Shown: positions 2,619 through 27,269 of the stretch, in pieces
How positions within the stretch are numbered: the stretch's first letter is position 1
How the letters are laid out: each line of letters opens with the position of its first letter
From: a virus
Strand: one strand, 5' to 3'
Length of the DNA: 27,269 nt
IMG/VR virus record: IMGVR_UViG_3300025806_000160
Location: 1 to 27,269 of that record
Program-made: the position numbers and the translations under genes
Notes under the pieces: generated by a model
The model's input: only the letters and a program-made list of their open reading frames with translations
Told to the model about the DNA's origin: nothing
Databases searched by the model: none

Positions 2619-3944
2619 ATGTTTAATTCAGAAAACCTTATGGAAAAATGGGCACCTGTCCTTGATAACAAAGATGCTGGCGCCTTTCAAGATGCTCATC
2701 GTAAATCAGTAACAGCTGTAGTATTAGAAAACACCGAGAAAGCCCTTGCTGAAGAGCGTGGACAAAATCAAATGTTATCTGAAGCTGCTCCTTCTAACTC
2801 AGTAGCTGGCGGTGGCGTTGTAAATTGGGATCCAATCCTAATTTCATTAGTACGTCGTGCTATGCCTAACCTTATCGCATATGACCTATGTGGTGTTCAG
2901 CCTATGACTGGTCCTACTGGTTTGATCTTCGCGATGAAATCTAGATACGGTGCCCAGGATGGTACTGAAGCGTTCGTTAACGAAGCCGATTCTGGTTTCT
3001 CTCAAGGAGCTGCTTTAGCTGCTGCACATGGTGCGGATTCGTCTTCTTTAGGCGGTACAGATACAACGCCAGCAGATACAGTGAACGATGCTTTTGACTT
3101 CGGTACTGGTTTGGCAATTGGTGCTGGTGAAGATTTCGGTGGTGATGCAACATTCAACGAAATGTCATTCAGTATCGAGAAAGCAACTGTTACTGCTAAG
3201 ACTCGTGCGCTTAAAGCTGAATATACAATGGAACTTGCTCAAGATCTTAAAGCCGTTCACGGCCTAGATGCTGAAAGCGAATTAGCTAATATCCTTTCTG
3301 GTGAAATCCTTGCTGAAATTAACCGTGAAGTTGTTCGTACAATTAACTCACGTGCTAAGCTTGGTTGTCAACAGGCTGATCTTGCTAATGCCGGCGATTT
3401 CGATCTTGATGTTGATGCTGATGGCCGTTGGTCTTTAGAGAAATATAAAGGTCTATTGGTTCAGATCCAACGTGAAGCTAATGTAATTGCTTTAGAAACA
3501 CGTCGTGGAAAAGGTAACTTTATCTTAGTATCATCTGATGTTGCAGCTATTCTTTCTGCTTCAGGTATGCTTGATAATACTCCTGCTTTAGCCGCAAATG
3601 CTAACATCAGTTCTGATGTTACTGGTACAACTATGGTTGGTACTTTGTCTGGTGGAATCAAGGTTTATCTTGACCCCTATGCAACTGTCAACTTCGTAAC
3701 TGTTGGTTTTAAAGGAACTAATCCTTATGATGCTGGTTTGTTCTATGCACCATATGTTCCTTTAACTATGGTTCGTGCTGTTAACGAAGCTACCTTCCAG
3801 CCTAAAATTGGCTTTAAGACTCGTTACGGTATGGTTGCTAACCCATATGTTGGTGGAACTCCCGGCGATAATGCTGGAGCAGTTCGTGCAAACCAGTACT
3901 ACCGCATATTCAAAGTATCTAACATCCTTGGTGTTGCAGGTTAA
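2619..3944 (+). CDS. 23: Major capsid protein gp23
   Basis: The 441-residue HK97-fold capsid subunit is shorter than T4 gp23 (521), as in many marine T4-like phages. Family segments include VVNWDPILISLVRRAMPNLI (about 68-87) and, near the C-terminus, GFKTRYGMVANPYV. A gp21 processing site is visible as LSE before Ala56 (residues 53-56), so the mature protein should start at Ala56. The binding site AGGAGA lies 9 bases before the ATG. Codon use is even and well adapted, as expected for the most abundant phage protein. A strong terminator follows the gene. Confidence 0.97.
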   Translation: MFNSENLMEKWAPVLDNKDAGAFQDAHRKSVTAVVLENTEKALAEERGQNQMLSEAAPSNSVAGGGVVNWDPILISLVRRAMPNLIAYDLCGVQPMTGPTGLIFAMKSRYGAQDGTEAFVNEADSGFSQGAALAAAHGADSSSLGGTDTTPADTVNDAFDFGTGLAIGAGEDFGGDATFNEMSFSIEKATVTAKTRALKAEYTMELAQDLKAVHGLDAESELANILSGEILAEINREVVRTINSRAKLGCQQADLANAGDFDLDVDADGRWSLEKYKGLLVQIQREANVIALETRRGKGNFILVSSDVAAILSASGMLDNTPALAANANISSDVTGTTMVGTLSGGIKVYLDPYATVNFVTVGFKGTNPYDAGLFYAPYVPLTMVRAVNEATFQPKIGFKTRYGMVANPYVGGTPGDNAGAVRANQYYRIFKVSNILGVAG

Positions 3945-3984
3945 TTAAAAAATCCTAATATGCTACCTTAGGACAAAGTGAATT

Positions 3985-4012
3985 GGGGATCTTAATTGAT
4001 CCCCTTTTTTTT
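3985..4012 (+). terminator. Rho-independent terminator after gp23
   Basis: A perfect 7-bp stem (GGGGATC 3985-3991 with GATCCCC 3998-4004) closes a 6-base loop and is followed by eight T. It ends the capsid transcript just before a new late promoter. Confidence 0.93.
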
Positions 4013-4015
4013 GCT

Positions 4016-4023
4016 TATAAATA
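4016..4023 (+). promoter_or_regulatory. Late promoter (TATAAATA) for the tube-fold protein, uvsY and uvsW
   Basis: An exact TATAAATA begins 4 bases after the T-tract of the gp23 terminator and 38 bases upstream of the next ATG. Terminator and promoter together separate the capsid unit from the tube-uvsY-uvsW unit. Confidence 0.8.
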
Positions 4024-4053
4024 ATTGGTATGTTTAACACGATGGGGTAAATC

Positions 4054-4563
4054 ATGCCATACGAAACTGATATAGATTTAAACGGCGCCAATGGACGTAA
4101 TGACCAAGATAATTTCCTTGCTCCAAACGGCTTCCGATTAGTAGTCGATAATACAGTATATGCTGATGTTCAATATAAAGTACAGCAAGTAAGTATACCT
4201 TCTATTAATGTCGATGCTACGCCAAGTCCATATGGCGGTGGCACATCATATACAATTGGTGATCGTGCTAATTACGAACCACTTGAATTGACTTTTTTAG
4301 TAGACGAAAACTTAAAAAATTATAAAGAAATACACAATTGGATTATGGGCGCGTTAACTAATCCAGATGCTGCAGTAGACGGCAAATTCAAAGATATTAC
4401 ATTAATGATCTTGTCATCACACAATAACGTAATTCAAGAAATACAATTTATTGGAGCGTTTCCAACAGGACTTTCTACATTGCAGTTTGACTCGTCAGCT
4501 AGCGATATTGAATACTTAACAGCTAACGTAACATTCCAATACCAATATTATAAATTAAAATAG
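4054..4563 (+). CDS. Tail tube-fold protein, gp19 family
   Basis: This 169-residue protein has the length and layout of T4 gp19 (163), which stacks as hexamers to form the inner tail tube. Shared pattern: an N-terminal strand region (NGFRLVVDNTVYADVQYKV), a central conserved GDRANYEPLELTFLVDE, and a C-terminal LWPT-like piece (GAFPTGLSTLQFDSS) followed by alternating beta residues ending QYQYYKLK. In T4, gene 19 lies upstream of gene 20. Here a tube-fold gene lies after gene 23, so it may be a second family member or a relocated gene 19; the window does not extend far enough left to tell. The binding site is GGGG at 4045-4048. Confidence 0.75.
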   Translation: MPYETDIDLNGANGRNDQDNFLAPNGFRLVVDNTVYADVQYKVQQVSIPSINVDATPSPYGGGTSYTIGDRANYEPLELTFLVDENLKNYKEIHNWIMGALTNPDAAVDGKFKDITLMILSSHNNVIQEIQFIGAFPTGLSTLQFDSSASDIEYLTANVTFQYQYYKLK

Positions 4564-4576
4564 AGATTAAATTATT

Positions 4577-5023
4577 ATGATACCATTGACTACCATTCTT
4601 AAAATGTGGGAAAAGGACTGTGTAATTGACGAAGTGAATTTAGATAACGCTTCTTTAGACGGTGCAAAACTGCATGCAAAATATTTAGAACTCCATTCAG
4701 TTTATAAACTGCAGGCACGACGTAAAGACATGGAGTTTAAAGTACTTCTTAAAAACAAGTACCTATGGTTTGCCGGTAAATTAACAAGAGATGAAATTGA
4801 TGAACTTGGTTGGGGATACGATCCCTTAAATGGATTAAAAGTTCTCAAAGGCGATATGGATAAATTCCTTGAGGCTGATAGAGACATTCAAGAAATGCAA
4901 GCTCAAATTGAATACAATAAAGTAGTAACAGAGACTCTTGACGAAATTATTGGTAATATCCGATGGAGAAGCTCTACAATAAAAAATGCAATCGAGTGGA
5001 GAAAATTCACTAGCGGAGTATAA
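4577..5023 (+). CDS. uvsY: UvsY recombination mediator
   Basis: UvsY loads the UvsX recombinase onto gp32-coated single-stranded DNA in T4 recombination-dependent replication and repair. This 148-residue protein matches T4 UvsY (137) in size and pattern: an early DxxxLDxAS segment, then KYLELHSVYKLQARRKDMEFK, an aromatic turn (KYLWFAGKLTRDEIDELGWGYDP) and a helical C-terminus ending IEWRKF. It is followed closely by uvsW (stop 5023, ATG 5029), a pairing also seen in T4 with the order reversed. It would be transcribed from the late promoter at 4016. Confidence 0.85.
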   Translation: MIPLTTILKMWEKDCVIDEVNLDNASLDGAKLHAKYLELHSVYKLQARRKDMEFKVLLKNKYLWFAGKLTRDEIDELGWGYDPLNGLKVLKGDMDKFLEADRDIQEMQAQIEYNKVVTETLDEIIGNIRWRSSTIKNAIEWRKFTSGV

Positions 5024-5028
5024 GGATC

Positions 5029-6531
5029 ATGACCGAAGTTGTTCAAGTTAGGCTTAAAGATTATTCGCAGTTGCTAATTGAAACTGATCATAGCACTGGT
5101 GCCGAGTTGACCGACTTCTTCTCGTTTTTTGCTGAAGGTTATAAGTTCCATCCTGCATATCGTAACAAACAATGGGATGGACTCCTGCGCCTTTATAACC
5201 ATCGTGATAAACAATTACCAATTGGGTTATATGCGTACTTACAGAATTTTTGTGAGGCCCGTGGATACATTCTAGAGGTTTTAGATAACCAACTGTATGG
5301 ATTACCAATAGCCGATAACAAAGTCCCACCATCGCTTGATTACCTTAACAGTCATACTTTTACTAGCCGCGGTAAACCTATCGAACATCGTGACTATCAG
5401 CTAAGGGCAATAACCACAGCCATTACAGAGCATCGGACATTATTATTGTCTCCAACGGCATCTGGAAAATCGCTCATCATATATTCCATTATGTTATATT
5501 ACATGGAGAATTATGATAAAGATATTCTAATAATCGTCCCTACTACGTCATTAGTGAACCAAATGTACGGTGATTTTGCTGATTATAGTGAGTTTGACCA
5601 AGCGTTTTCTGCTGAAGACAGTTGTCATATGATTTACTCAGGTAAAGAGAAAAACACAGGGAAGCGCGCGGTCATCTCAACTTGGCAATCAATATATAAA
5701 TTAGGTAGTGCGTGGTTCAAAAAGTTTGGTATGATAATCGGTGATGAAGCACATACGTTTAAAGCAAAGTCTTTAGTATCAATAATGGGGAAGTCAACCG
5801 AAGCACAATTCAGAATTGGAACGACTGGCACAATTGATAATATAGCAGTAAATAAACTGGTCCTAGAAGGTTCGTTCGGTCCTGTCTATAGAGTGACATC
5901 AACAAAGGCGCTAATGGACGAAGGTTCACTTGCGGCTCTTGACATAAAAATACTAGCACTTAAATATCCTGACGTTGAAAGCAAGATAGTTTCAAAACTC
6001 AAATATCCTCAGGAAATGGACTATATCGTTACCCATGAGAAACGAAATAACTTTATAGCAAATTTAGCAATAGCACAAACAGGTAACACCTTAATATTAT
6101 TTCAGTTTGTTGGTAAACACGGCAAGCCATTACATGAACTGATAAATACAAAGGTAGGCGACGATCGTGAAGTCTTTTATGTATCAGGTGAAACTGATGC
6201 AAATTTACGAGAAGACGTTCGACGAATTACTGAAACAAAATCAAATGCAATATTGGTATGCTCACTCGGAACTTTTAGTACTGGAGTGAATATAAGAAAC
6301 CTACACAATATTATATTTGCATCACCGAGTAAGGCACAAATAAAGATCTTACAATCAATAGGAAGAGGATTAAGAAAAAGCGATAATGGTCAGGATACCA
6401 AGTTATTTGATATTGCCGATGATTTCCATTGGAAAAGTAAAAAGAATTATACATTAAGACACGCTGCTGAACGTGTAAAGATTTACGCATCCGAGAAGTT
6501 TAATTTTAAAATTCACGAGGTAAAGATGTAA
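5029..6531 (+). CDS. uvsW: UvsW DNA/RNA helicase
   Basis: At 500 residues (T4 UvsW 503), this superfamily 2 helicase unwinds R-loops and branched DNA, and in T4 it drives the switch from origin- to recombination-dependent replication. Visible motifs: Walker A SPTASGKS (141-148), DEAH (239-242), motif III GTTGT (264-268), and motif VI QSIGRGLRK (442-450). The N-terminal ~110 residues correspond to the small DNA-binding domain. The gene is six bases from uvsY and overlaps the next ATG by one base (TAATG). A consensus promoter at 7008-7036 points back into it on the minus strand (see findings). Confidence 0.94.
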   Translation: MTEVVQVRLKDYSQLLIETDHSTGAELTDFFSFFAEGYKFHPAYRNKQWDGLLRLYNHRDKQLPIGLYAYLQNFCEARGYILEVLDNQLYGLPIADNKVPPSLDYLNSHTFTSRGKPIEHRDYQLRAITTAITEHRTLLLSPTASGKSLIIYSIMLYYMENYDKDILIIVPTTSLVNQMYGDFADYSEFDQAFSAEDSCHMIYSGKEKNTGKRAVISTWQSIYKLGSAWFKKFGMIIGDEAHTFKAKSLVSIMGKSTEAQFRIGTTGTIDNIAVNKLVLEGSFGPVYRVTSTKALMDEGSLAALDIKILALKYPDVESKIVSKLKYPQEMDYIVTHEKRNNFIANLAIAQTGNTLILFQFVGKHGKPLHELINTKVGDDREVFYVSGETDANLREDVRRITETKSNAILVCSLGTFSTGVNIRNLHNIIFASPSKAQIKILQSIGRGLRKSDNGQDTKLFDIADDFHWKSKKNYTLRHAAERVKIYASEKFNFKIHEVKM

Positions 6532-6890
6532 TGAATGATCTAGTAAAAGAAGCTGCTGCAGGATTAGATGTAAAACAATTTAAATTAATGAACGGTGAAA
6601 CTGTGTTAGGTATCGTTAAAGAAGAGACTCGTACAACATTAATAATCGAATCTCCGATTGAGCTTTTGGAATCTTATGAAGATGATACTTACAGATATGG
6701 TTTTAAACACTGGTTTGAATTTAGTGTTAATGATGAAGCCACACTTTTTAAATCTAGTTTAGTTGCGTTGAGTGATATAAATAACAATATTAAAGAATCA
6801 TATCTAAAGGTTATTATCAGTAATGGTACAGATGAAATATCTAATGAATCAATATCTGATAATAATACTAGTAATATGACTTGTCATTAA
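6531..6890 (+). CDS. Sm-like (Hfq-fold) phage protein, paralogue 1
   Basis: This 119-residue protein is translationally coupled to uvsW (shared A of TAATG). Residues 17-50 read VKQFKLMNGETVLGIVKEE and then a hydrophobic strand plus ESPIELL. This is the strand-GE-strand layout of small Sm/Hfq-like proteins seen in marine T4-like phages. A second family member lies at 22061-22351. The C-terminal ~25 residues are Ser/Asn-rich and probably disordered. RNA binding is inferred from the fold resemblance only; no function is established. Confidence 0.55.
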   Translation: MNDLVKEAAAGLDVKQFKLMNGETVLGIVKEETRTTLIIESPIELLESYEDDTYRYGFKHWFEFSVNDEATLFKSSLVALSDINNNIKESYLKVIISNGTDEISNESISDNNTSNMTCH

Positions 6891-19845: not shown

Positions 19846-20228
19846 TGATGAATCCTTTTGATTATGTAAATTCCATTACGTTAAGCAAACGTAATATTAT
19901 GGTAACACCAGAGGATGAGAAAGGTTATGCAGCCTTTCTTATCAACCGTGGCCTTTCGCAGTTCCAAGATACTATCTTTTATGCAAATGAAATGAATCGG
20001 TATCACAAATTGGACAATAAACTGCAGTATCAGTTTCTTATTAACATTGTACGGAAACGGAAACGTTTCTCTAAATGGGCCAAGGCTGACACAGCTGATG
20101 CTGATATAATTGAAGCAATTAAGATTGTATACAATTATAGTAATGATAAGGCTAGACAAGTTGTCGGACTTTTATCAAAAGATCAAAAGTCCGCGCTGCT
20201 CGAAAAAATACATAAGGGTGGAACTTAA
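19845..20228 (+). CDS. 62: Clamp-loader small subunit gp62 with a probably replaced C-terminus
   Basis: This 127-residue protein pairs with gp44. The best match to T4 gp62 is FLINIVRKRKRFSKWAK, corresponding to T4 RGKRYGKWAK, followed by helical IIEAIKIVYNYSNDKARQVV. It is shorter than T4 gp62 (187). The start is ATG 19845 or 19848 after GGAG. From residue 66 (20040) to the end, the sequence is repeated in divergent form at 20860-21050. The stop overlaps, by 3 bases, the 3' end of the convergent HNH gene. This copy probably encodes the working protein because it alone is joined to the N-terminal half (see findings). Confidence 0.82.
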   Translation: MMNPFDYVNSITLSKRNIMVTPEDEKGYAAFLINRGLSQFQDTIFYANEMNRYHKLDNKLQYQFLINIVRKRKRFSKWAKADTADADIIEAIKIVYNYSNDKARQVVGLLSKDQKSALLEKIHKGGT

Positions 20229-20761
20229 CGGTGCTTACACTTTGCTCCGTGATAGCGCGCGTATGTTGCAAGTTGAACACTTTCGCCGCAATGTTCACAA
20301 TTGATTCTAGGACGGTTCAGCGCGGCTTGAGATTGCAGCTTTTTAGTTTCGTCTGTAGTGATAGCCCCTAATCTTGATCCGTCCTTATTAGCATACAGTT
20401 CTTTCATGGATTTTTTGAATTTGTTAGATCTTTCATCAGTCCATTTAGGAAGAGTCATGCCTTTAGTTGGCGTCGGATTTGTTTTCATTCTAGCAGCGAC
20501 ACGTTTTTTAACATGTTCTTTAGTTTGCTTCTTTCCAGTTAAAGCTGCAGAAACGGCTAGTCTTCTAGCTTCTTCGCCGCTTATTTGGCCTGAAAGAGCT
20601 TTATACGCAATTAGGTCTTGCAAACGATTATGCTTTTCGTATAGAGCAAGGTGGGCAAGAGCGTGTTGTTCTACAGTCAGTTTTATTAAATTTGACTGAT
20701 CGTCGCTACCGCCAGCATGGCGCGGGATGATGTGATGTTTGTGATATATAGTATTAGGCAT
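20225..20761 (-). CDS. HNH homing endonuclease inserted in gene 62
   Basis: This 178-residue protein is on the minus strand. The start ATG (20761) has a strong AAGGAG (20774-20769). HNH motif: KHHIIPRHAGG (8-18), N24, then EQHALAHL with H33/H37. A helical middle contains short NUMOD-like DNA-binding stretches. A C-terminal zinc-finger pattern has C155, C158, H171 and C175. HNH enzymes of this kind nick or cut phage genes and spread themselves by gene conversion. Its own late promoter and a stem-loop lie upstream on the minus strand. It sits between gp62 and an orphan gp62 C-terminus. Confidence 0.87.
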   Translation of the reverse strand: MPNTIYHKHHIIPRHAGGSDDQSNLIKLTVEQHALAHLALYEKHNRLQDLIAYKALSGQISGEEARRLAVSAALTGKKQTKEHVKKRVAARMKTNPTPTKGMTLPKWTDERSNKFKKSMKELYANKDGSRLGAITTDETKKLQSQAALNRPRINCEHCGESVQLATYARYHGAKCKHR

Positions 20762-20795
20762 GTAGCTGCTCCTTACAGTTATTGTGTTTAGGGAC

Positions 20796-20817
20796 AGAGG
20801 TTATTGGCGTAACCTCT
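20796..20817 (-). promoter_or_regulatory. 5' stem-loop in the HNH leader
   Basis: A perfect 8-bp inverted repeat (AGAGGTTA 20796-20803, TAACCTCT 20810-20817) with a 6-base loop lies between the minus-strand late promoter and the HNH start. The stem begins 11 bases after the promoter box, close to the expected 5' end of the late RNA. There is no T run, so it is not a terminator. Confidence 0.7.
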
Positions 20818-20828
20818 TGTTCTGATAT

Positions 20829-20836
20829 TATTTATA
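20829..20836 (-). promoter_or_regulatory. Late promoter (TATAAATA) for the HNH gene
   Basis: The minus strand reads TATAAATA at 20836-20829, 68 bases upstream of the HNH start. Late expression of homing endonucleases is known from T4. Confidence 0.78.
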
Positions 20837-20858
20837 ATAATATGAATTTCGGATAATG

Positions 20859-20866
20859 TATAAATA
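20859..20866 (+). promoter_or_regulatory. TATAAATA box at the start of the orphan gp62 copy
   Basis: An exact TATAAATA on the plus strand spans the first codons of the orphan gp62 segment (ATA AAT). It could give regA a late transcript after insertion of the HNH cassette. It may also be a chance result of the coding sequence at the junction. Confidence 0.45.
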
Positions 20867-21050
20867 TTGTCAGGAAGCGGAAACGTTTCTCTAAATGGGC
20901 TAAGCAAGACAAGACCAATTTAGAAATGATTGAAGTGATTAAGACGTATTACGGGTATTCAAACGACAAAGCCCGTCAAGTACTATCTCTTCTTAACAAT
21001 GAACAGTTGAATGAACTACAGCGGAAGGTTGACCATGGTGGAACAAAATA
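20860..21050 (+). pseudogene. Orphan C-terminal fragment of gp62
   Basis: An open frame without a start encodes 63 residues colinear with gp62 residues 66-127: the first 15 residues are identical (INIVRKRKRFSKWAK), and 38 of 62 match without gaps. A 23-base DNA segment is identical in both copies (20058-20080 and 20878-20900). Joining 19845-20039 to 20860-21050 restores a complete gp62 reading frame, so this is the likely original 3' end, cut off by the HNH insertion. It still carries the ribosome binding site and start of regA. An internal ATG at 20926 could give a 41-residue peptide but has no clear binding site. Confidence 0.85.
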
Positions 21051-21451
21051 AACAAGTAGAGTGGACTCCAAACACAATGTTGGAAATTACACTAAATGAA
21101 CCCGACGACTTTTTAAAAGTACGCGAAACATTAACACGAATTGGTGTTGCATCGCAACTTGATAAAAGATTATATCAGTCTTGTCACATATTACATAAAC
21201 AAGGAAGATACTTCATTGTACACTTTAAAGAATTATTCATTCTTGATGGCAAAGCATCAAACTTATTTGAGAATGATATTCAACGACGCAACACGATCAC
21301 AATGCTGTTATCAGATTGGGGATTAATTAATGTTGTAAATCCTGATGAGGCAAAAGACACTGCTCATCTAAGACAAATAAAAATCATCTCTTTTAAAGAA
21401 AAGGATGAATGGGATTTACAGCCAAAATACAATATTGGAACAAAATCCTAA
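21035..21451 (+). CDS. regA: RegA translational repressor
   Basis: RegA binds start regions of early mRNAs and blocks their translation, including those of gp44, gp45 and gp62 in T4. Residues 15 onward (MLEITLNEPDDFLKVRETLT) follow T4 RegA almost position for position, as do LYQSCHILHKQGRYFIVHFKE, LLSDWGLI and the C-terminal PKYNIGT. The T4 protein starts at the equivalent of ATG 21077, but here GGAAGG (21023-21028) points to ATG 21035, giving 138 residues with a 14-residue extension. The start overlaps the end of the orphan gp62 fragment, as gene 62 and regA are adjacent in T4. Confidence 0.93.
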   Translation: MVEQNKQVEWTPNTMLEITLNEPDDFLKVRETLTRIGVASQLDKRLYQSCHILHKQGRYFIVHFKELFILDGKASNLFENDIQRRNTITMLLSDWGLINVVNPDEAKDTAHLRQIKIISFKEKDEWDLQPKYNIGTKS

Positions 21452-22060: not shown

Positions 22061-22351
22061 ATGTCAGATAATGTACATGTTTTAAGATTGATCACAGGTG
22101 AAGAATTAATTGCAGTAGTTGAGTCCTTTGATGGTACTGTCTATAAGATTAATAATGTTGCGGTATTAATACCTACACAAGATAACTCTTTAGGACTAGC
22201 TCCCTTTATGGCTTACTGTGAAGATGGTCCCCTTGAATTGCGAGGGTCAGACGTCATGTTTACACGTACACCAGTCGAAGGTTTGGCAAAACAACACGGT
22301 AATATGTTCGGTAAAATAGTAACTCCTTCTAAGAAAATTATATTGGGTTAA
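22061..22351 (+). CDS. Sm-like (Hfq-fold) phage protein, paralogue 2
   Basis: This 96-residue protein lies 15 bases after hsp20 with AGGAG upstream. It opens VHVLRLITGEELIAVVESFD and continues with a hydrophobic strand and IPTQ, the same strand-GEE-strand plan as the protein at 6531-6890. The C-terminus (AKQHGNMFGKIVTPSKKI) is a helix plus basic tail. RNA binding is inferred from fold resemblance only. A strong terminator follows. Confidence 0.6.
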   Translation: MSDNVHVLRLITGEELIAVVESFDGTVYKINNVAVLIPTQDNSLGLAPFMAYCEDGPLELRGSDVMFTRTPVEGLAKQHGNMFGKIVTPSKKIILG

Positions 22352-22360
22352 ATTTAAGAA

Positions 22361-22394
22361 AGGGTATCATTTCTATTGACATGATACCCTTTTT
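22361..22394 (+). terminator. Terminator whose loop contains the next promoter's -35 box
   Basis: A perfect 10-bp stem (AGGGTATCAT 22361-22370, ATGATACCCT 22381-22390) closes a 10-base loop and continues into TTTT. The stem's final T adds to the U tract. The loop ends with TTGAC, the first five bases of the gene 43 promoter -35, which is completed by the first base of the right arm. Confidence 0.88.
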
Positions 22395-22404
22395 GTTATA
22401 TAAT
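22376..22404 (+). promoter_or_regulatory. Sigma70 early promoter for the first gene 43 fragment
   Basis: TTGACA (22376-22381), 17 bases, TATAAT (22399-22404), full consensus. It is interleaved with the preceding terminator hairpin. Confidence 0.92.
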
Positions 22405-22434
22405 AGTATTTGATTTTTACAATGGAGTACCACC

Positions 22435-23430
22435 TTGACTGAATTCTATACCTCCGTCGCCCGCTACGGCAATTCGCTTTTATATCGTGGATACAAAGGC
22501 AAGCATAAAGTACGCGAAAAGATAAAGTTCAAACCTACCTTATACCTCAAAGATAACGAAAGTGAAACAAAAGCACTTGATGGCGTTTCAGTTTCTCCAA
22601 TGCAATACTCTTCAATGCGCGATGCAAAAGAATTTATTGAGCAATACAAAGATGTGCCTAACTTTGAAATATACGGCAATCGTAATTACATAGTTCAATA
22701 CATTCAAGAAAAGTTCCCTGGTAATATTGCGTTTGATATGGACAATGTTAATGTTGCGGCTATTGACATTGAAGTTGTTGCTGATGAGTTTCCACATGCC
22801 GAACAGGCACTATATCCTATTGTTTCAATTGCAATGATGTCTACTCAAGATAGCATGCGACGTGTATGGGGATTACCTAACTATAAAAATACTCGTGATG
22901 ATGTAATTTATTATCACTGTAAGAACGAAGCCGAACTGTTAATGAAGTTCATAACACATTGGTCAAATCCTGAATATACTCCAGATATCGTTACAGGCTG
23001 GAATACTCGATTCTTTGATACACCTTATATTATCAATCGACTTGCTAAAACTTTAGGTATTGAATTTGCCAAAAAGTATTCTCCATGGGGTTTGATAAAT
23101 GAACGCATGGTTACGGTTAACGGTCAAAAGCAACAGAGCTACGAAGTAACAGGATTGCCTGAACTTGATTACATGGAGTTATTTAAGAAGTTTACTATTA
23201 ATACATTAGGCGCTCAAGAATCATATAAACTTGATCATATTGCAAACGTTGTGCTTGGCGATCGGAAATTGTCATACGAAGAAAACACACAGATGTATGC
23301 TTTACTACGCGACGCCGAAGGCTGTAACCCTGACGAGAAACTGACCAAGCTAGAAGACATGGACGAGTTACAACGCACGTGTCTTCTTCGTGATCGTGTA
23401 CGCGCCTTACGCTTGTCTCGAGGGGTTTAG
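22435..23430 (+). CDS. 43A: DNA polymerase gp43 fragment A: N-terminal and exonuclease domains
   Basis: This 331-residue protein starts at TTG 22435 (GGAG at 22424-22427; no ATG nearby). It is the first third of a B-family polymerase of T4 gp43 type. Exo I IDIE (D111, E113) and Exo II TGWNTRFFDTPY (N190, D195) are present; SYKLDHIANVVLGDRKLSYEE follows as in the family. The Exo III motif is absent and lies in fragment B. After about residue 293 the sequence no longer resembles polymerases and ends in a basic tail (RDRVRALRLSRGV). Its last 24 bases overlap the 3' end of the antisense HNH gene. It ends by a normal stop, so this is a fractured gene, not a frameshift. Confidence 0.92.
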   Translation: MTEFYTSVARYGNSLLYRGYKGKHKVREKIKFKPTLYLKDNESETKALDGVSVSPMQYSSMRDAKEFIEQYKDVPNFEIYGNRNYIVQYIQEKFPGNIAFDMDNVNVAAIDIEVVADEFPHAEQALYPIVSIAMMSTQDSMRRVWGLPNYKNTRDDVIYYHCKNEAELLMKFITHWSNPEYTPDIVTGWNTRFFDTPYIINRLAKTLGIEFAKKYSPWGLINERMVTVNGQKQQSYEVTGLPELDYMELFKKFTINTLGAQESYKLDHIANVVLGDRKLSYEENTQMYALLRDAEGCNPDEKLTKLEDMDELQRTCLLRDRVRALRLSRGV

Positions 23431-24120
23431 TTTGCAATTATCATCATGCCAGCGCTTTAAGTTAGAATATGTGGTTACTACATTACAGTGTTGACATTTT
23501 CGAGTTTTATGATTTATTTTCCCACGGGCGATTTCATCACTAAATTGGCCAAGGCTGTCGATATAAATGCCCCACCCTTTTGCCGACATCTTGACTGCGC
23601 CTTTATACGCTCTTATAAGCGAATTAATATCGTGTTGGCTAATCACGTCGGCATGCTTGGTATGGAAGTCCATACGGGTCCCTTTAAAGACGGTTGTACT
23701 GTTTTTAAACGTGTATGTGTGATCGTCATAGTTGGGATTAGCCTTTCCGCTAGAGCGTATAGAACACGCTTCTATAAACCGGCGTTTATGCGCTTCATAA
23801 ATAGTTGATGAGAATTTTAGACCTAGCCGTTGGGTATATCCAAAGTGAAAAAACGTATGAAGCGCGAATGTCATTTTACATGTGTCTTTGCCAATAGTGA
23901 ATTTAGTTAATAGCAAATGGGCGATATAATGCTCTCTAAATGTATATGGGAGCATTATTGTTCCACCAAAACTGTGGGGTAGCACATGATGATTTTCATG
24001 CTCAGCCGACGTATAAGTACGTTGTTCACTGACTATTTTATTTGCTAATGCTAAATACGCCCGATAATACTTGTTGCATTTAAAGTTATTATAATTTAAA
24101 AATTCGTTTACCATTGACAT
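23407..24120 (-). CDS. HNH homing endonuclease between gene 43 fragments A and B
   Basis: This is 237 residues on the minus strand. HNH motif: ENHHVLPHSFGG (42-53) with H44/H45, then REHYIAHLLL with H64/H68, similar in style to Mob-type endonucleases of T4-like phages. A C-terminal zinc-finger pattern has C209, C212, H225 and C229, laid out like that of the HNH gene in gene 62. Two starts are possible (24120 and 24114); neither has a strong binding site. The start region overlaps the -35 of the fragment B promoter on the other strand. No clear late box is seen upstream. Confidence 0.85.
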   Translation of the reverse strand: MSMVNEFLNYNNFKCNKYYRAYLALANKIVSEQRTYTSAEHENHHVLPHSFGGTIMLPYTFREHYIAHLLLTKFTIGKDTCKMTFALHTFFHFGYTQRLGLKFSSTIYEAHKRRFIEACSIRSSGKANPNYDDHTYTFKNSTTVFKGTRMDFHTKHADVISQHDINSLIRAYKGAVKMSAKGWGIYIDSLGQFSDEIARGKINHKTRKCQHCNVVTTYSNLKRWHDDNCKLNPSRQA

Positions 24121-24142
24121 TACATCTCTATTAGTTTATAAT
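24114..24142 (+). promoter_or_regulatory. Sigma70 early promoter for gene 43 fragment B
   Basis: TTGACA (24114-24119), 17 bases, TATAAT (24137-24142), full consensus, 28 bases upstream of the fragment B ATG. It lets fragment B be made without read-through of the HNH region. Confidence 0.92.
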
Positions 24143-24169
24143 ACTATATATAACATTAAGGATCTTACT

Positions 24170-24859
24170 ATGAACATTGATTATTTACTTAGCTCTAATC
24201 TAGATAATTTATCTGACGATGAATTGATTGCCTTAGATGCTGAGCTTACGGCAGAAGCTAATCTGCTCGCCGGATACAAAGGAATTGATTATAATATAGT
24301 CGATATTGAGTTAATTCTTCGCATGGATGATAAACTTCAATTGATTGGTCTGGCTGCGACGATGGCTTATAGCGCTGGTGTTAATTACGGTGATACATTA
24401 GGCACAACTGCTATTTGGGATGCTATCATCTATCGTGATTTGTGTTCTCGTAACATGGCTGTACCACCTAACAAGCATAAGTTCAAAGATGCGTTTGAAG
24501 GCGGCTGGGTTAAAGCTCCTAAGGTTGGTCTACATAATTGGGTAGTATCATTCGATTTGGCATCGCTTTATCCCCACTTAATAATGCAAGCAAACATATC
24601 TCCAGAAACCTTAGTTGAAGGCGATCGTATAGACGGTCTTACAGTTAATAACTTGTTGGAACGTAAAAGCTTTGAGGTACCAGACGGTCGAGCGTTATGT
24701 CCTAATGGAGTTATGTTTGATACCGAAAAGCAAGGTGTCATTCCTGCGCTAATCAAAACCAAGTATGCCGCTCGTAAACGTATCAAAAAAGAAATGCTTT
24801 CAGCGCAACAAGAATTGGTTAACGTCGAGGAGGAAATGAAACGTCGAGGTATCACTTAA
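24170..24859 (+). CDS. 43B: DNA polymerase gp43 fragment B: Exo III, palm motif A, start of fingers
   Basis: This 229-residue protein starts at ATG 24170 with AAGGA upstream. From about residue 36 it is polymerase: DYNIVDIEL (Exo III, D45), DKLQLIGLA, then the palm motif A FDLASLYP with catalytic D129, and NISPETLVEGD. It continues to the fingers helix (KTKYAARKRIKKEMLSAQQE) and stops at KRRGIT. The first ~35 residues (LSSNLDNLSDDELIALDAEL) are acidic and are not expected from T4 gp43. The stop overlaps a small downstream ATG (TAATG). Confidence 0.92.
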   Translation: MNIDYLLSSNLDNLSDDELIALDAELTAEANLLAGYKGIDYNIVDIELILRMDDKLQLIGLAATMAYSAGVNYGDTLGTTAIWDAIIYRDLCSRNMAVPPNKHKFKDAFEGGWVKAPKVGLHNWVVSFDLASLYPHLIMQANISPETLVEGDRIDGLTVNNLLERKSFEVPDGRALCPNGVMFDTEKQGVIPALIKTKYAARKRIKKEMLSAQQELVNVEEEMKRRGIT

Positions 24860-25014
24860 TGATACTTCACTTTGACTCATTGTCTAATAGCGATTTCACG
24901 GAGTATTTACGCAAAGCAAACGCTTTACATCGGCTTGGTCACTTTCGACATTTAACACCGCGTGAGTTAGCAAAACATATTTATGATACTGAAATGAAAA
25001 ATAAATGCGAATAA
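24859..25014 (+). CDS. Possible 51-residue protein coupled to fragment B
   Basis: ATG 24859 shares its A with the fragment B stop (TAATG). The product is MILHFDSLSNSDFTEYLRKA, then HRLGHFRHLTPRELAKHIYD and a Lys-rich end. It is rich in His and basic residues, and a helical piece (TPRELAKHIYD) is visible. No family is recognised. Coupling and length suggest it is real, though it could be a remnant of the endonuclease insertion. Confidence 0.5.
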   Translation: MILHFDSLSNSDFTEYLRKANALHRLGHFRHLTPRELAKHIYDTEMKNKCE

Positions 25015-25038
25015 CTGCAGTATTAAGAATGTGATATG

Positions 25039-25046
25039 TATAAATA
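25039..25046 (+). promoter_or_regulatory. Late promoter (TATAAATA) for the Vsr-like endonuclease
   Basis: An exact TATAAATA lies 65 bases upstream of the ATG at 25112, in the 97-base gap after the small protein gene. Confidence 0.78.
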
Positions 25047-25056
25047 ATAATGAACA

Positions 25057-25079
25057 GAGTGGTATTGGTAGTACCACTC
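25057..25079 (+). promoter_or_regulatory. 5' stem-loop in the Vsr-like endonuclease leader
   Basis: A perfect 8-bp inverted repeat (GAGTGGTA 25057-25064, TACCACTC 25072-25079) with a 7-base loop begins 10 bases after the late promoter box. Its layout mirrors the leader of the HNH gene at 20225. There is no T run, so not a terminator. Confidence 0.72.
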
Positions 25080-25111
25080 CATCCTCAGACATAACCAACA
25101 GGAAATTACTC

Positions 25112-25855
25112 ATGTCCATTACTATTTATCAACACCAGTTAGACACTCATTTAGAAACTGTAATATCATCATTAAAAGCAGGCGAGTCATTACTTCAGCT
25201 ATGCAAGAAATACAGCATAAACTATCATGCCTTTCGTAAAGTGATAAAGCGTGATTATCCAACGTTGTTGTCAATGAAAAAGTCAAAACAAATGCGTGAA
25301 AGAATGTCTGCTTCAACTCGGAAGTTCTCACCTGACGAAGAGCAACATATAATTGAACGCTACATGGCCGGCGAAAGCGCATATCAGATTCTTAAAGACT
25401 ATGATGTTGTAGTCAATGTTATATACAGCATTCTAAAAAGAAACAACATTCCTAAGAATAACCAGTCCAGTTATTGGACTGATGAAATGCGAGAAAAGCA
25501 ACGGCAGTTGTGCTATGATGGTATTGTTGGCATACATGCTCAAGGTGATGGTGCATATCGTTTCACTAAACCTGAGAGAGACTTTGCTAAATGGTGTGAA
25601 GATAACACCATTGCATACGAAAGACAATTCCAAATAACAAAAGGCACTCACCGTTATGATTTCATTATAAGCGATACTAATATCTTAGTAGAAATTGATG
25701 GTGAATATTGGCATAGCACACCAGAACAAACCGCAAAGGACCGTTCGTTTGAGGAATATGCAATTGACAACGGTTACGCCGTTATTCGCTTTACTGATAA
25801 AGAAATGCGTAAAACAAAAAATAATTGTTTACAAGCACTTAAAAGTTTGATATAA
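25112..25855 (+). CDS. Vsr-like (EDxHD family) homing endonuclease between gene 43 fragments B and C
   Basis: This 247-residue protein has ATG 25112 with AGGAAA upstream. Two N-terminal helix-turn-helix-like repeats (about 14-48 and 76-112) read as DNA-binding modules. The C-terminal nuclease domain (150-247) has the Vsr-fold pattern: KPERDFAKWCE (E155), YERQFQI, RYDFII (D183), EIDGEYWH (E194, D196, H201), KDRSFEEYA (D210), and GYAVIRFTDKE. I recall this fold as a family of phage homing endonucleases described with fractured genes, and as the free-standing enzyme F-CphI beside a cyanophage intron. Its 3' end contains the promoter of fragment C. Confidence 0.85.
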   Translation: MSITIYQHQLDTHLETVISSLKAGESLLQLCKKYSINYHAFRKVIKRDYPTLLSMKKSKQMRERMSASTRKFSPDEEQHIIERYMAGESAYQILKDYDVVVNVIYSILKRNNIPKNNQSSYWTDEMREKQRQLCYDGIVGIHAQGDGAYRFTKPERDFAKWCEDNTIAYERQFQITKGTHRYDFIISDTNILVEIDGEYWHSTPEQTAKDRSFEEYAIDNGYAVIRFTDKEMRKTKNNCLQALKSLI

Positions 25856-25856
25856 T
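25828..25856 (+). promoter_or_regulatory. Early promoter for gene 43 fragment C, inside the endonuclease gene
   Basis: TTTACA (25828-25833), 17 bases, TATAAT (25851-25856). It overlaps the last codons and stop of the endonuclease gene and lies 28 bases upstream of the fragment C ATG, which has a GAGGAA binding site. Confidence 0.82.
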
Positions 25857-25883
25857 AGAACATTACAATATGAGGAATACACT

Positions 25884-27236
25884 ATGGATTTAAAAACACT
25901 AAGCGACGATGAGCTGCGAGCTTTACATTATGAATACAGTAAAAAGTATTCAACGCTTGACAACCAACAAATGAGTATCAAAATCCTAAACTTATTGGGC
26001 CTCTAATCAGGAATGATTAGATGAGAATCGGGTGAACTCAGGGAAGGCTTTAATATGCTAATCCTGAGCCAAGACCTTTATTATGTAAAGGTAAGGTGCA
26101 ACGACTATCCGAAAGGAGTAGAGATCAAGTGGTCTCGAAGCGCCCGACAGCCAGACCGGCTGATGATATAGTCTGATCTTATACGAAAGTATAAGCTGGG
26201 TTCGTCCCGGGATATGATTAACGCTCGTATCCGAACATCATGAATGAACAGTTTGTATGGTGCGATGGGTTCAGCTTACTTCAGATATTTTGATTTGCGA
26301 ATGGCTGAAGGCATTACATTGTATGGTCAGTTATCAATTCGTTGGGCTGAGAAATCGTTTAACAACTTCATTAATAAAATCATGGGTACTACCAAATGTG
26401 ATTATGTTATTGCTGCTGATACTGATTCTAATTATTTAGATTTTGGCCCACTTGTCGAAAAACTCGGATTAGCAAAAACTAATGATACTAAAGGTATTGT
26501 TGATATTATCGACAAAATGTGCAGCGATCAGTTTGAACCAATGATTGCTAAATGTTATGACGATCTTGCTAAATACATGCATGCCTATCAGAACAAAATG
26601 GTTATGGAACGTGAAGTAATTGCTGATCTTGGTATATGGACTGCAAAGAAACGTTATATACTAAATGTACATAACTCTGAAGGTGTATCATTTAAAGAAC
26701 CTAAACTAAAGATCATGGGTATCGAAGCAATTAAATCTTCAACACCAGCAATATGTCGTGATGCTTTAAAGAATATCTTCAAGGTTATAATGACTGGTTC
26801 TGAGCTTAAAACCCGTAAGGCTATTACTGACTTTCAAGAGTTCTTTCATGCTCAGCCGCCTGAAGCAGTATCGTTTCCACGTGGAGTTTCTGATATTGTT
26901 AAATGGCGCGATGGTGACGGATATAAGTCAAGATGTCCTATACATGTACGCGGCGCTATAATGTATAATGTTGGTATTGAGCAGAAGAAACTTAAAAAGT
27001 ATACTGCAGTTCGTAATGGCGACAAAGTTAAGTTCTGTTACCTTAAGTTGCCTAATCCCATCAAGGAAAATGTTATTTCGTTTCCTGATTATTTACCGCC
27101 TGAGTTAAATTTGAATGCGTATGTTGATTATGATAAGCAATTCAGTAAAACCTTTATAGATCCAATTGAACCTGTACTTAAGGCTATCGGTTGGTCAGTT
27201 GAAGAGCAGTCGAGTTTGGAGGATTTCTTCGGTTAA
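25884..27236 (+). CDS. 43C: DNA polymerase gp43 fragment C: palm motifs B and C, thumb (spliced, join 25884-25987 and 26243-27236)
   Basis: Exon 1 (104 bases) encodes MDLKTLSDDELRALHYEYSK and runs to MSIKI plus two bases of Leu35; exon 2 supplies the rest, giving 365 residues. Splicing creates KILMNSLYGAMG, the motif B region (K33 corresponds to the conserved Lys). Motif C AADTDSNYLDF carries D94 and D96. KKRYILNVHNSEG and LKIMGIEAIKSSTP follow as in T4 gp43, and the C-terminus QSSLEDFFG is the clamp-binding tail. Without splicing, exon 1 ends at TAA 26004-26006 after 40 codons. An ATG at 26244 has no binding site, so expression of exon 2 should depend on splicing. Confidence 0.9.
25988..26242 (+). 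ncRNA. Group I intron in gene 43 (255 nt, no internal ORF)
   Basis: All core helices can be drawn. P1: CCU|AA (25985-25989) with UUGGG (25995-25999), placing a U-G pair at the 5' splice site. P2: 26003-26008/26015-26020. P3: 26028-26032/26143-26147. P4: CTCAGG/CCTGAG (26037/26063). P6: 26074-26080/26086-26092. P7: GACTAT/ATAGTC (26103/26168). P7.2: 26121-26126/26131-26136. P8: CAGCC/GGCTG (26148/26158). P9: a 7-bp stem with GAAA loop (26178-26195). P10: UUAUU 25992-25996 with the 3' exon AAUGA. The intron ends in G26242. The conserved GTGCAACGACTA segment and the P7.1/P7.2 layout fit subgroup IA, as in T4 td. Confidence 0.93.
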
Positions 27237-27258
27237 GGTATATCCATATATCAAACAG

Positions 27259-27269
27259 TTCTATAAAAA
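27259..27269 (+). repeat. Start of another repeated promoter cassette at the window edge (partial)
   Basis: TTCTATAAAAA at the last 11 bases equals the first 11 bases of the upstream part shared by the cassettes at 11906 and 14692. A TATACA-type promoter is therefore expected just outside the window, after gene 43. The tract 27237-27258 holds nothing else recognisable. Confidence 0.5.

Follow-up and report, generated by a model that had tools for sequence, protein, structure and literature searches.

Gene 43 in three pieces: two stacked insertions and a putative three-part family B DNA polymerase in a T4-like phage

Can a replicative DNA polymerase be cut twice, once through its proofreading domain and once through its fingers, and still act as one enzyme? 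The question is raised by gene 43, which encodes the T4-type family B DNA polymerase (PolB; gp43), in a viral stretch of 27,269 nucleotides (IMG/VR record IMGVR_UViG_3300025806_000160, positions 1 to 27,269, hereafter "the window"). Single-chain B-family polymerases are the standard for replication. In the window, however, the gene 43 region (22435-27236) consists of three separately started pieces, A, B and C, as an earlier sequence-only reading had described them, and both the coordinates and the content of that description were confirmed. We propose that two mobile cassettes are stacked in this gene and that the three polypeptides together make one PolB, an interpretation to which we assign a probability of about 0.8. 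The coding pieces are the following:

22435-23430, plus strand: gp43 fragment A, N-terminal and exonuclease domains with Exo I/II (TTG start, 331 amino acids; phrog_262, PF03104); codons 284-331 form a new C-terminal tail
24170-24859, plus strand: gp43 fragment B, with a new head (codons 1-36), Exo III, motif A and the first half of the fingers (229 amino acids; phrog_262)
25884-25987, plus strand: gp43 fragment C, exon 1, second finger helix (85.7% amino acid identity over 28 amino acids to the intact allele L004 described below; weak match to phrog_1918)
26243-27236, plus strand: gp43 fragment C, exon 2, motifs B and C and the C-terminal end (phrog_262, 520-852)

A, B and exon 2 of C are collinear with gp43, as they match positions 6-302 (E 6.4e-86), 309-496 (E 2.1e-62) and 520-852 (E 1.7e-133), in this order, of the 856 positions of the gp43 family phrog_262. 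Exon 1 of C, which together with exon 2 makes a spliced C of 365 amino acids, matches phrog_1918 at E 0.019. When the fragments are mapped by sequence on the PDB chain 1clq, which we take to be RB69 gp43, A matches up to residue 306, B corresponds to residues 319-499 and exon 2 of C to residues 563-901. According to this mapping, the proofreading domain is broken between Exo II and Exo III, and the finger loop between motifs A and B. The A|B break falls between residues 306 and 319, inside the exonuclease domain, and hence this is not a two-part polymerase with a whole exonuclease domain.

The motifs, which we name according to our understanding of the PolB literature, are all present. A contains Exo I (D111/E113) and Exo II (N190/D195), B contains Exo III (Y41/D45) and motif A (D129), and spliced C contains motif B (KILMNSLYGA, from residue 33) and motif C (D94/D96), each numbered in its own fragment. 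In alignments that covered A and B, D111, E113 and D195 are invariant across 53 sequences of A, and Y41, D45 and D129 across 45 sequences of B. Neither A nor B nor spliced C contains a frameshift or an internal stop. The sequence-only reading was therefore right that all motifs are intact and that both active sites are divided between polypeptides. Judged by their collinearity and by the three exonuclease and three polymerase motifs, A, B and C are parts of one T4-type gp43 family B DNA polymerase, whose enzymatic activity is predicted.

The insertions are defined by a near-identical phage sequence in which the gene is uninterrupted. This locus (L004) is 97.6-99.3% identical to the window by segment (four segments over 6.5 kb), and its gene 43 is one open frame of 619 codons from the start to the contig end. 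It lacks the HNH gene that stands between A and B in the window, and of positions 24822-26243 only a counterpart of exon 1 of C is present (77% identical over 78 nt). The remaining gp43 sequence differs at 3 of 849 nt in A, 13 of 538 in B and 3 of 311 in exon 2 of C, with 18 synonymous codon changes and one that is not. Ten of the 13 differences in B cluster within 108 nt of the insertion (p 2e-5, the 108-nt limit having been set after the sites were seen).

The complete three-part form was found in two further contigs from different metagenome records (L002 and L003), with 6 and 3 differences from the window over 10.1 and 9.3 kb (99.94-99.97% DNA identity), and the A|B part in a third (L006), which then ends. 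More distant loci carry one break each. L005 (77-86% identical at the protein level) and L009 (40-50%) are cut at A|B alone and have an HNH gene related to that of the window (88% and about 51% identity, respectively); L169, L170 and L171 are cut at B|C alone and have relatives (46-50%) of the endonuclease described below. To put these cases in proportion, we considered 277 loci, 255 of which contain some gp43 piece; exclusion of 18 that lack one of A, B or exon 2 of C and of three from annotated phage records left 234 loci with 161 distinct DNA sequences of the B region. Both places are uninterrupted in 149 of them, two are broken at both, two at A|B only and eight at B|C only (in one of these eight, L013, the break adjoins unread bases). 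The set was gathered partly by endonuclease queries, with the best 80 matches listed for each, so these counts are not natural frequencies. The search for other three-part cases, suggested in the sequence-only reading, thus returned the two doubly broken sequences, both of which belong to the lineage of the window itself.

What, then, was inserted between A and B? Identity of A with L004 ends at 23283, and the cassette that follows comprises codons 284-331 of A, an antisense HNH gene, and the promoter, the start and codons 1-36 of B:

23284-23430, plus strand: tail of A from the cassette, 48 codons, the final 24 nt overlapping the end of the HNH gene; not in L004
23407-24120, minus strand: HNH homing endonuclease gene (HNH2), antisense, between A and B (phrog_655, homing endonuclease, E 1.6e-18)
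24170-24277, plus strand: head of B from the cassette, 36 codons; among the fetched loci confined to the window lineage, L005 and L009

A search with a three-member alignment of the HNH protein returned five full-length close relatives from three lineages (three of them contigs of the window lineage), and all five are located at this position of gp43. A search with the HNH2 sequence alone also returned a 26-residue match on a 10-kb locus without a gp43 piece (L166), which we do not regard as a cassette relative. Further afield, HNH2 matches 134 phage records, with identity below 30% throughout the best 30 of the 134; in the first of these records listed, Vibrio phage VH1_2019, no gene annotated as a polymerase lies within 4 kb of the HNH2 relative. 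Among 50,697 annotated phage records, the head of B has no match at E up to 10, and the tail of A has no relative, its two matches at E 8 both being in unrelated genes. In distant relatives (L025), the tail aligned to the stretch of gp43 that follows Exo II, but this was judged to be an alignment run-on and not homology. A permissive Rfam scan found no intron family between A and B at E 5 on either strand, and a Pfam scan of A, B and the exons of C found no intein family at E 0.1. The A|B break is thus of the genes-in-pieces type, with a homing endonuclease inside an essential gene and neither intron nor intein found at the break.

The cassette has a history of its own. Between the window and L005, synonymous divergence (dS) is 1.42 in the body of A, saturated in the body of B and 1.65 in exon 2 of C, but 0.27 in the tail of A, 0.49 in HNH2 and 0.34 in the head of B; for synonymous change (pS) in the pooled cassette versus the body of A, p is 3e-9. 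The low dS of the cassette indicates that tail, HNH gene and head have a common history, more recent than that of the surrounding polymerase. At the protein level, the tail is 87.5% identical between the window and L005, and the head of B is 89% identical in L005 and 56% in L009 over 34 residues, i.e. about as conserved as the body of B. Outside the overlap with the HNH gene, the ratio of nonsynonymous to synonymous divergence (dN/dS) of the tail is 0.10 (3 nonsynonymous and 7 synonymous changes, p 0.0008), and that of the head is 0.16 (4.5 and 6.5, p 0.006). Tail and head exist only in the split form, and purifying selection on them argues that both split products matter. The proposal of the sequence-only reading that selection maintains a three-part enzyme gains support from these values, and a dN/dS near 1 in the fragments across relatives, which it had named as evidence to the contrary, was not observed. 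The predicted structure of A contains a helix at residues 311-328 (low confidence), and that of B an unbroken helix at residues 16-69 (moderate to low confidence) that joins the head to Exo III.

A side observation concerns the two new N-termini: the head of B, NLDNLSDDELIALDAE (24170-24247), and the head of C, DLKTLSDDELRALHYE (25884-25934), share 10 of 16 residues. These may be chance helix caps, or one head may have been copied from the other.

Each piece in the window is preceded by a promoter-like site. The best three sigma-70-type sites in 22300-27269, all with 17-nt spacers, end 27-30 nt upstream of A, B and C:

22376-22404, plus strand: promoter-like site of A, TTGACA-17-TATAAT (12/12); unchanged before the intact L004 gene
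24114-24142, plus strand: promoter-like site of B, TTGACA-17-TATAAT (12/12); also 12/12 in L005, not in L009
25828-25856, plus strand: promoter-like site of C, TTTACA-17-TATAAT (11/12)

Dinucleotide shuffling (300 replicates) gave on average 0.01 sites of 12/12 and 0.18 of at least 11/12 per strand, compared to the two and three observed. The entire window contains eight sites of at least 11/12, others of which precede replication genes, e.g. genes 45 and 44 and an exonuclease gene; B and C therefore seem to carry the ordinary promoter type of this phage. In L004 the sequence that holds the sites of B and C is absent, and the gene has no internal site of at least 11/12 and two of 10/12.

The second insertion, between B and C, is of a more familiar kind. 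It includes:

24859-25014, plus strand: small open reading frame (ORF) of 51 amino acids that overlaps the stop of B; among the fetched loci found only in the window lineage (E 0.05)
25112-25855, plus strand: freestanding DUF559/Vsr-like homing endonuclease gene between B and C (PF04480, E 2.5e-7; PHROG matches including homing endonuclease families)
25988-26242, plus strand: group I intron, 255 nt, without an ORF (RF00028)

The intron matches RF00028 with 98.1 bits (threshold 50; E 1.7e-24) over positions 1-253 of the 253 of the model, U precedes its 5' site and G stands at its 3' end. The unspliced frame of C stops after 40 codons, and C therefore needs the removal of the intron; excision of 25988-26242 gives KIL-MNSLYGA, which is also the reading of the intact L004. 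This agrees with the earlier prediction that the third part needs splicing, and we infer that the intron splices itself out of the message of C. The endonuclease, which we presume to be of the EDxHD type, is found between B and C of gp43 in 8 of 25 related loci (L167-L171, L179, L180 and, in antisense orientation, L173). Just upstream of its gene, a hairpin of 13 pairs (25052-25084) possibly controls its expression.

Some further loci bear on the B|C site. In L179 and L180 (about 2700-6830), a DUF559-type endonuclease separates B from C in PolB genes that have diverged strongly (23-26% identity), and L179 also has a group I intron (80 bits) at the B|C site. This layout suggests repeated co-settlement of the site. 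In two other loci (L144:2912-3616 and L147:951-1655), a two-part gp43 is broken at the finger-loop site, and the intervening ORF resembles, by eye, a GIY-YIG endonuclease. The core of the intron is also shared with L275:2681-2821 and L277:1027-1167 (74-83% similar), but these matches are uninformative on gene 43: the flanking ORFs look capsid-like by eye, neither contig has a gp43 piece, and the phage is of a different type.

Sequence comparison establishes the two cuts, the promoter matches, the existence of an intact relative, a separate history for the first cassette and purifying selection on tail and head, and the following scenario can be built on these findings. The first cassette (tail of A, antisense HNH gene, and promoter, start and head of B) would have settled between Exo II and Exo III. 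The second would have settled in the finger loop; it runs from the end of B through the small ORF, the EDxHD-type endonuclease gene, the promoter, start and exon 1 of C and the group I intron, the 3' end of which is its right edge. The intron would remove itself from the message of C, and A, B and C would then bind each other, with the exonuclease site formed by A and B and the polymerase site by B and C. The contact between A and B would probably be helped by the tail of A and the head of B. Finally, the endonucleases may spread the insertions by cutting uninserted alleles of gene 43 such as that of L004. In favor of this reading counts the presence of the A|B split, a related HNH gene and a related head in L009, in which the polymerase is merely 40-50% identical.

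Other scenarios can be envisaged. The cut through the exonuclease domain, together with the ability of exonuclease-deficient PolB enzymes to polymerise, would be compatible with a working polymerase made of B and spliced C alone, in which A is tolerated but unassembled and proofreading is lost. However, the selected tail of A exists only after the cut, A has retained the invariant residues of Exo I/II and its own 12/12 promoter, the N-terminal domain also resides on A, and the only changes that distinguish A from L004 are synonymous; we consider this alternative improbable. Could A and B instead be joined, by an undetected intron with the antisense HNH gene or by protein splicing, so that only the B|C break gives separate proteins? 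Joining A at about codon 294 to B at codon 35 would, by eye, give a near-native protein, with the tail and the head lying beyond the native residues. Nonetheless, the intron and intein scans were negative at the thresholds given above, A ends in a stop, B begins with an ATG behind a promoter match of its own, and tail and head are conserved as protein, which makes such a junction very improbable.

It may also be argued that three insertions in one essential gene seem costly and that a near-identical phage carries the intact allele, as if the split gene were a decaying copy in a lineage that is dying out, or had been replaced by another polymerase. Against this stand the open frames of A, B and spliced C, the selection on tail and head, and the recurrence of the form: besides the window, two contigs carry both cuts and one more the A|B cut, with only 3-6 bases of difference from the window over 7-10 kb. 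An intact second polymerase gene, the other observation that the sequence-only reading had named as contrary to it, was not found in 77.9 kb searched. We regard decay or replacement as quite improbable.

Several points nevertheless weigh against our preferred reading, in which three polypeptides assemble into one PolB. Conservation of the bodies of A, B and C is by itself no proof of function after the split, because dS of the bodies is much higher than that of the cassette and their conservation largely predates its spread. The claim that each fragment has its own promoter holds for the window but not for every relative: L005 has no site of at least 11/12 before A (a 12/12 site before B is present), and L009 has none before B (an 11/12 site before A is present). 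The tail of A is weakly similar in L009 (13 of 40 aligned residues identical), a search with the tail alone misses L009 even at E 10, and dN/dS of the whole tail, including the overlap with the HNH gene, rises to 0.30 (8.5 nonsynonymous and 7.5 synonymous changes). The selection result for tail and head does not depend on the promoters of L005 and L009 or on the tail of L009. The tail is modelled at low confidence, and the model of B alone is moderately confident (predicted local distance difference test, pLDDT, 73; predicted template modelling score, pTM, 0.54). At the ten sites of the apparent co-conversion tract beside the first insertion, L005 agrees with the window at five, with L004 at four and with neither at one, and therefore neither gain of the first cassette in the window lineage nor its loss in L004 is rejected. 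Lastly, the 77.9-kb contig of the same phage has only the three polymerase matches, but the phage genome is incomplete.

How unusual is this arrangement? In Aeromonas phage 25, gene 43 is divided into 43A and 43B; a freestanding homing endonuclease gene separates the two, and 43B is interrupted by a group I intron (Petrov, Ratnayaka and Karam 2010, via PMC2988022, PMC2993671), so that the two-part split mentioned for Aeromonas T4-like phages in the sequence-only reading is a real precedent. The proteins 43A and 43B co-purify and polymerase activity is present (PMC2988022), which provides a precedent for reassembly, and the intron, devoid of an endonuclease gene of its own, is predicted to use the freestanding one (PMC2993671). 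The window shares with phage 25 the finger-loop break after the motif A region at the same site (43A ends as B does and 43B starts as C does), the freestanding endonuclease and, in the second part, a group I intron without an ORF. In contrast to the window, phage 25 has a two-part polymerase whose exonuclease domain is whole, an endonuclease of a different type (seg, PMC2988022) and an intron located about 8-9 codons further downstream, judged by where the frame leaves the gp43 sequence. The two-part gp43 of Synechococcus phage ACG-2014f is broken at the same finger-loop site, with an Hsp20 gene upstream as in the window, but its A and B are fused and two small ORFs (52 and 71 codons) take the place of the endonuclease gene. 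There is also a resemblance to fractured genes, which Dassa and colleagues are said to have described in 2009 as combining split inteins with EDxHD-type endonucleases: in both cases a Vsr-like endonuclease stands between two gene parts. In the window, however, the gp43 parts match no intein family.

Other divided genes offer looser analogies. The NrdA gene of Aeromonas phage Aeh1 is split by MobE and fully functional (PMC2988022, PMC3653736); as in the A|B case, a freestanding endonuclease cuts an essential enzyme gene without an intron, and the two Aeh1 polypeptides reassemble into an active enzyme. It is a different enzyme, with one cut, whereas gene 43 in the window has two. Element-derived extra ends reportedly mediate the assembly of Aeh1 NrdA. 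A single gene in three parts has been found in another T4-like phage, the Aeromonas phage phiAS4, whose nrdD consists of three broken coding regions, the cause being given as unknown (PMC3653736); its parts are described as overlapping or closely spaced, with no endonuclease reported, and the gene encodes a ribonucleotide reductase and not a polymerase. Multiple insertions in one phage polymerase gene are known from Bastillevirinae phages, with two or three group I introns (PMC11878797), but these are spliced from the RNA and yield one chain. A three-part polymerase was not found in the literature searched, which was mostly open-access and in which two-part ones do occur (PMC2988022, PMC2993671, PMC10448857, PMC11878797, PMC3653736, PMC8351571, PMC3322345). 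The B|C break with its endonuclease and intron is thus of an established kind, and it is the A|B break and the resulting three-part polymerase that are new; the emphasis of the sequence-only reading on novelty was justified for the A|B break, but the B|C break follows the layout known from phage 25.

The natural gp43 splits that we found described keep the proofreading domain whole. If confirmed, a three-chain enzyme with a divided proofreading site would reveal how much cutting a replicative polymerase can bear without loss of function, and its split points and docking ends would be natural models for the design of split polymerases. Together with the near-identical intact allele and the two-part relatives that carry one break or the other, the three-part form offers a series in which to test how mobile endonucleases render insertions tolerable.

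It is tempting to regard the HNH cassette as a portable gene-splitting module, which would supply a docking tail and a stop for the first part, and a phage-type promoter, a ribosome site, a start and a docking head for the second. Repeated use of such modules (two in gene 43, one in gene 62 of the same phage) could then convert a one-chain polymerase into a heterotrimer, with the proofreading and the polymerising active sites each built from two proteins, without protein splicing. We give this generalisation even odds. The insertion in gene 62 is:

20084-20859, no strand assigned: second HNH cassette, in gene 62, with a replacement 3' end for gp62 (HNH gene at 20225-20761, minus strand); absent from L004

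The HNH gene in this cassette belongs to the same PHROG family as HNH2 and follows a complete gp62 frame, the last part of which differs from that of L004, and the native 3' end of gene 62 persists downstream as a remnant ORF of 41 codons (20926-21051). The full replacement end of gene 62 supports the view that HNH insertions may carry coding sequence of the host gene that keeps the target usable. As regards the phage itself, the best match of its capsid protein among phage records is Phage C48C1 (61%), followed by Methylophilales and Pelagibacter T4-like phages, which indicates a T4-like phage with marine relatives.

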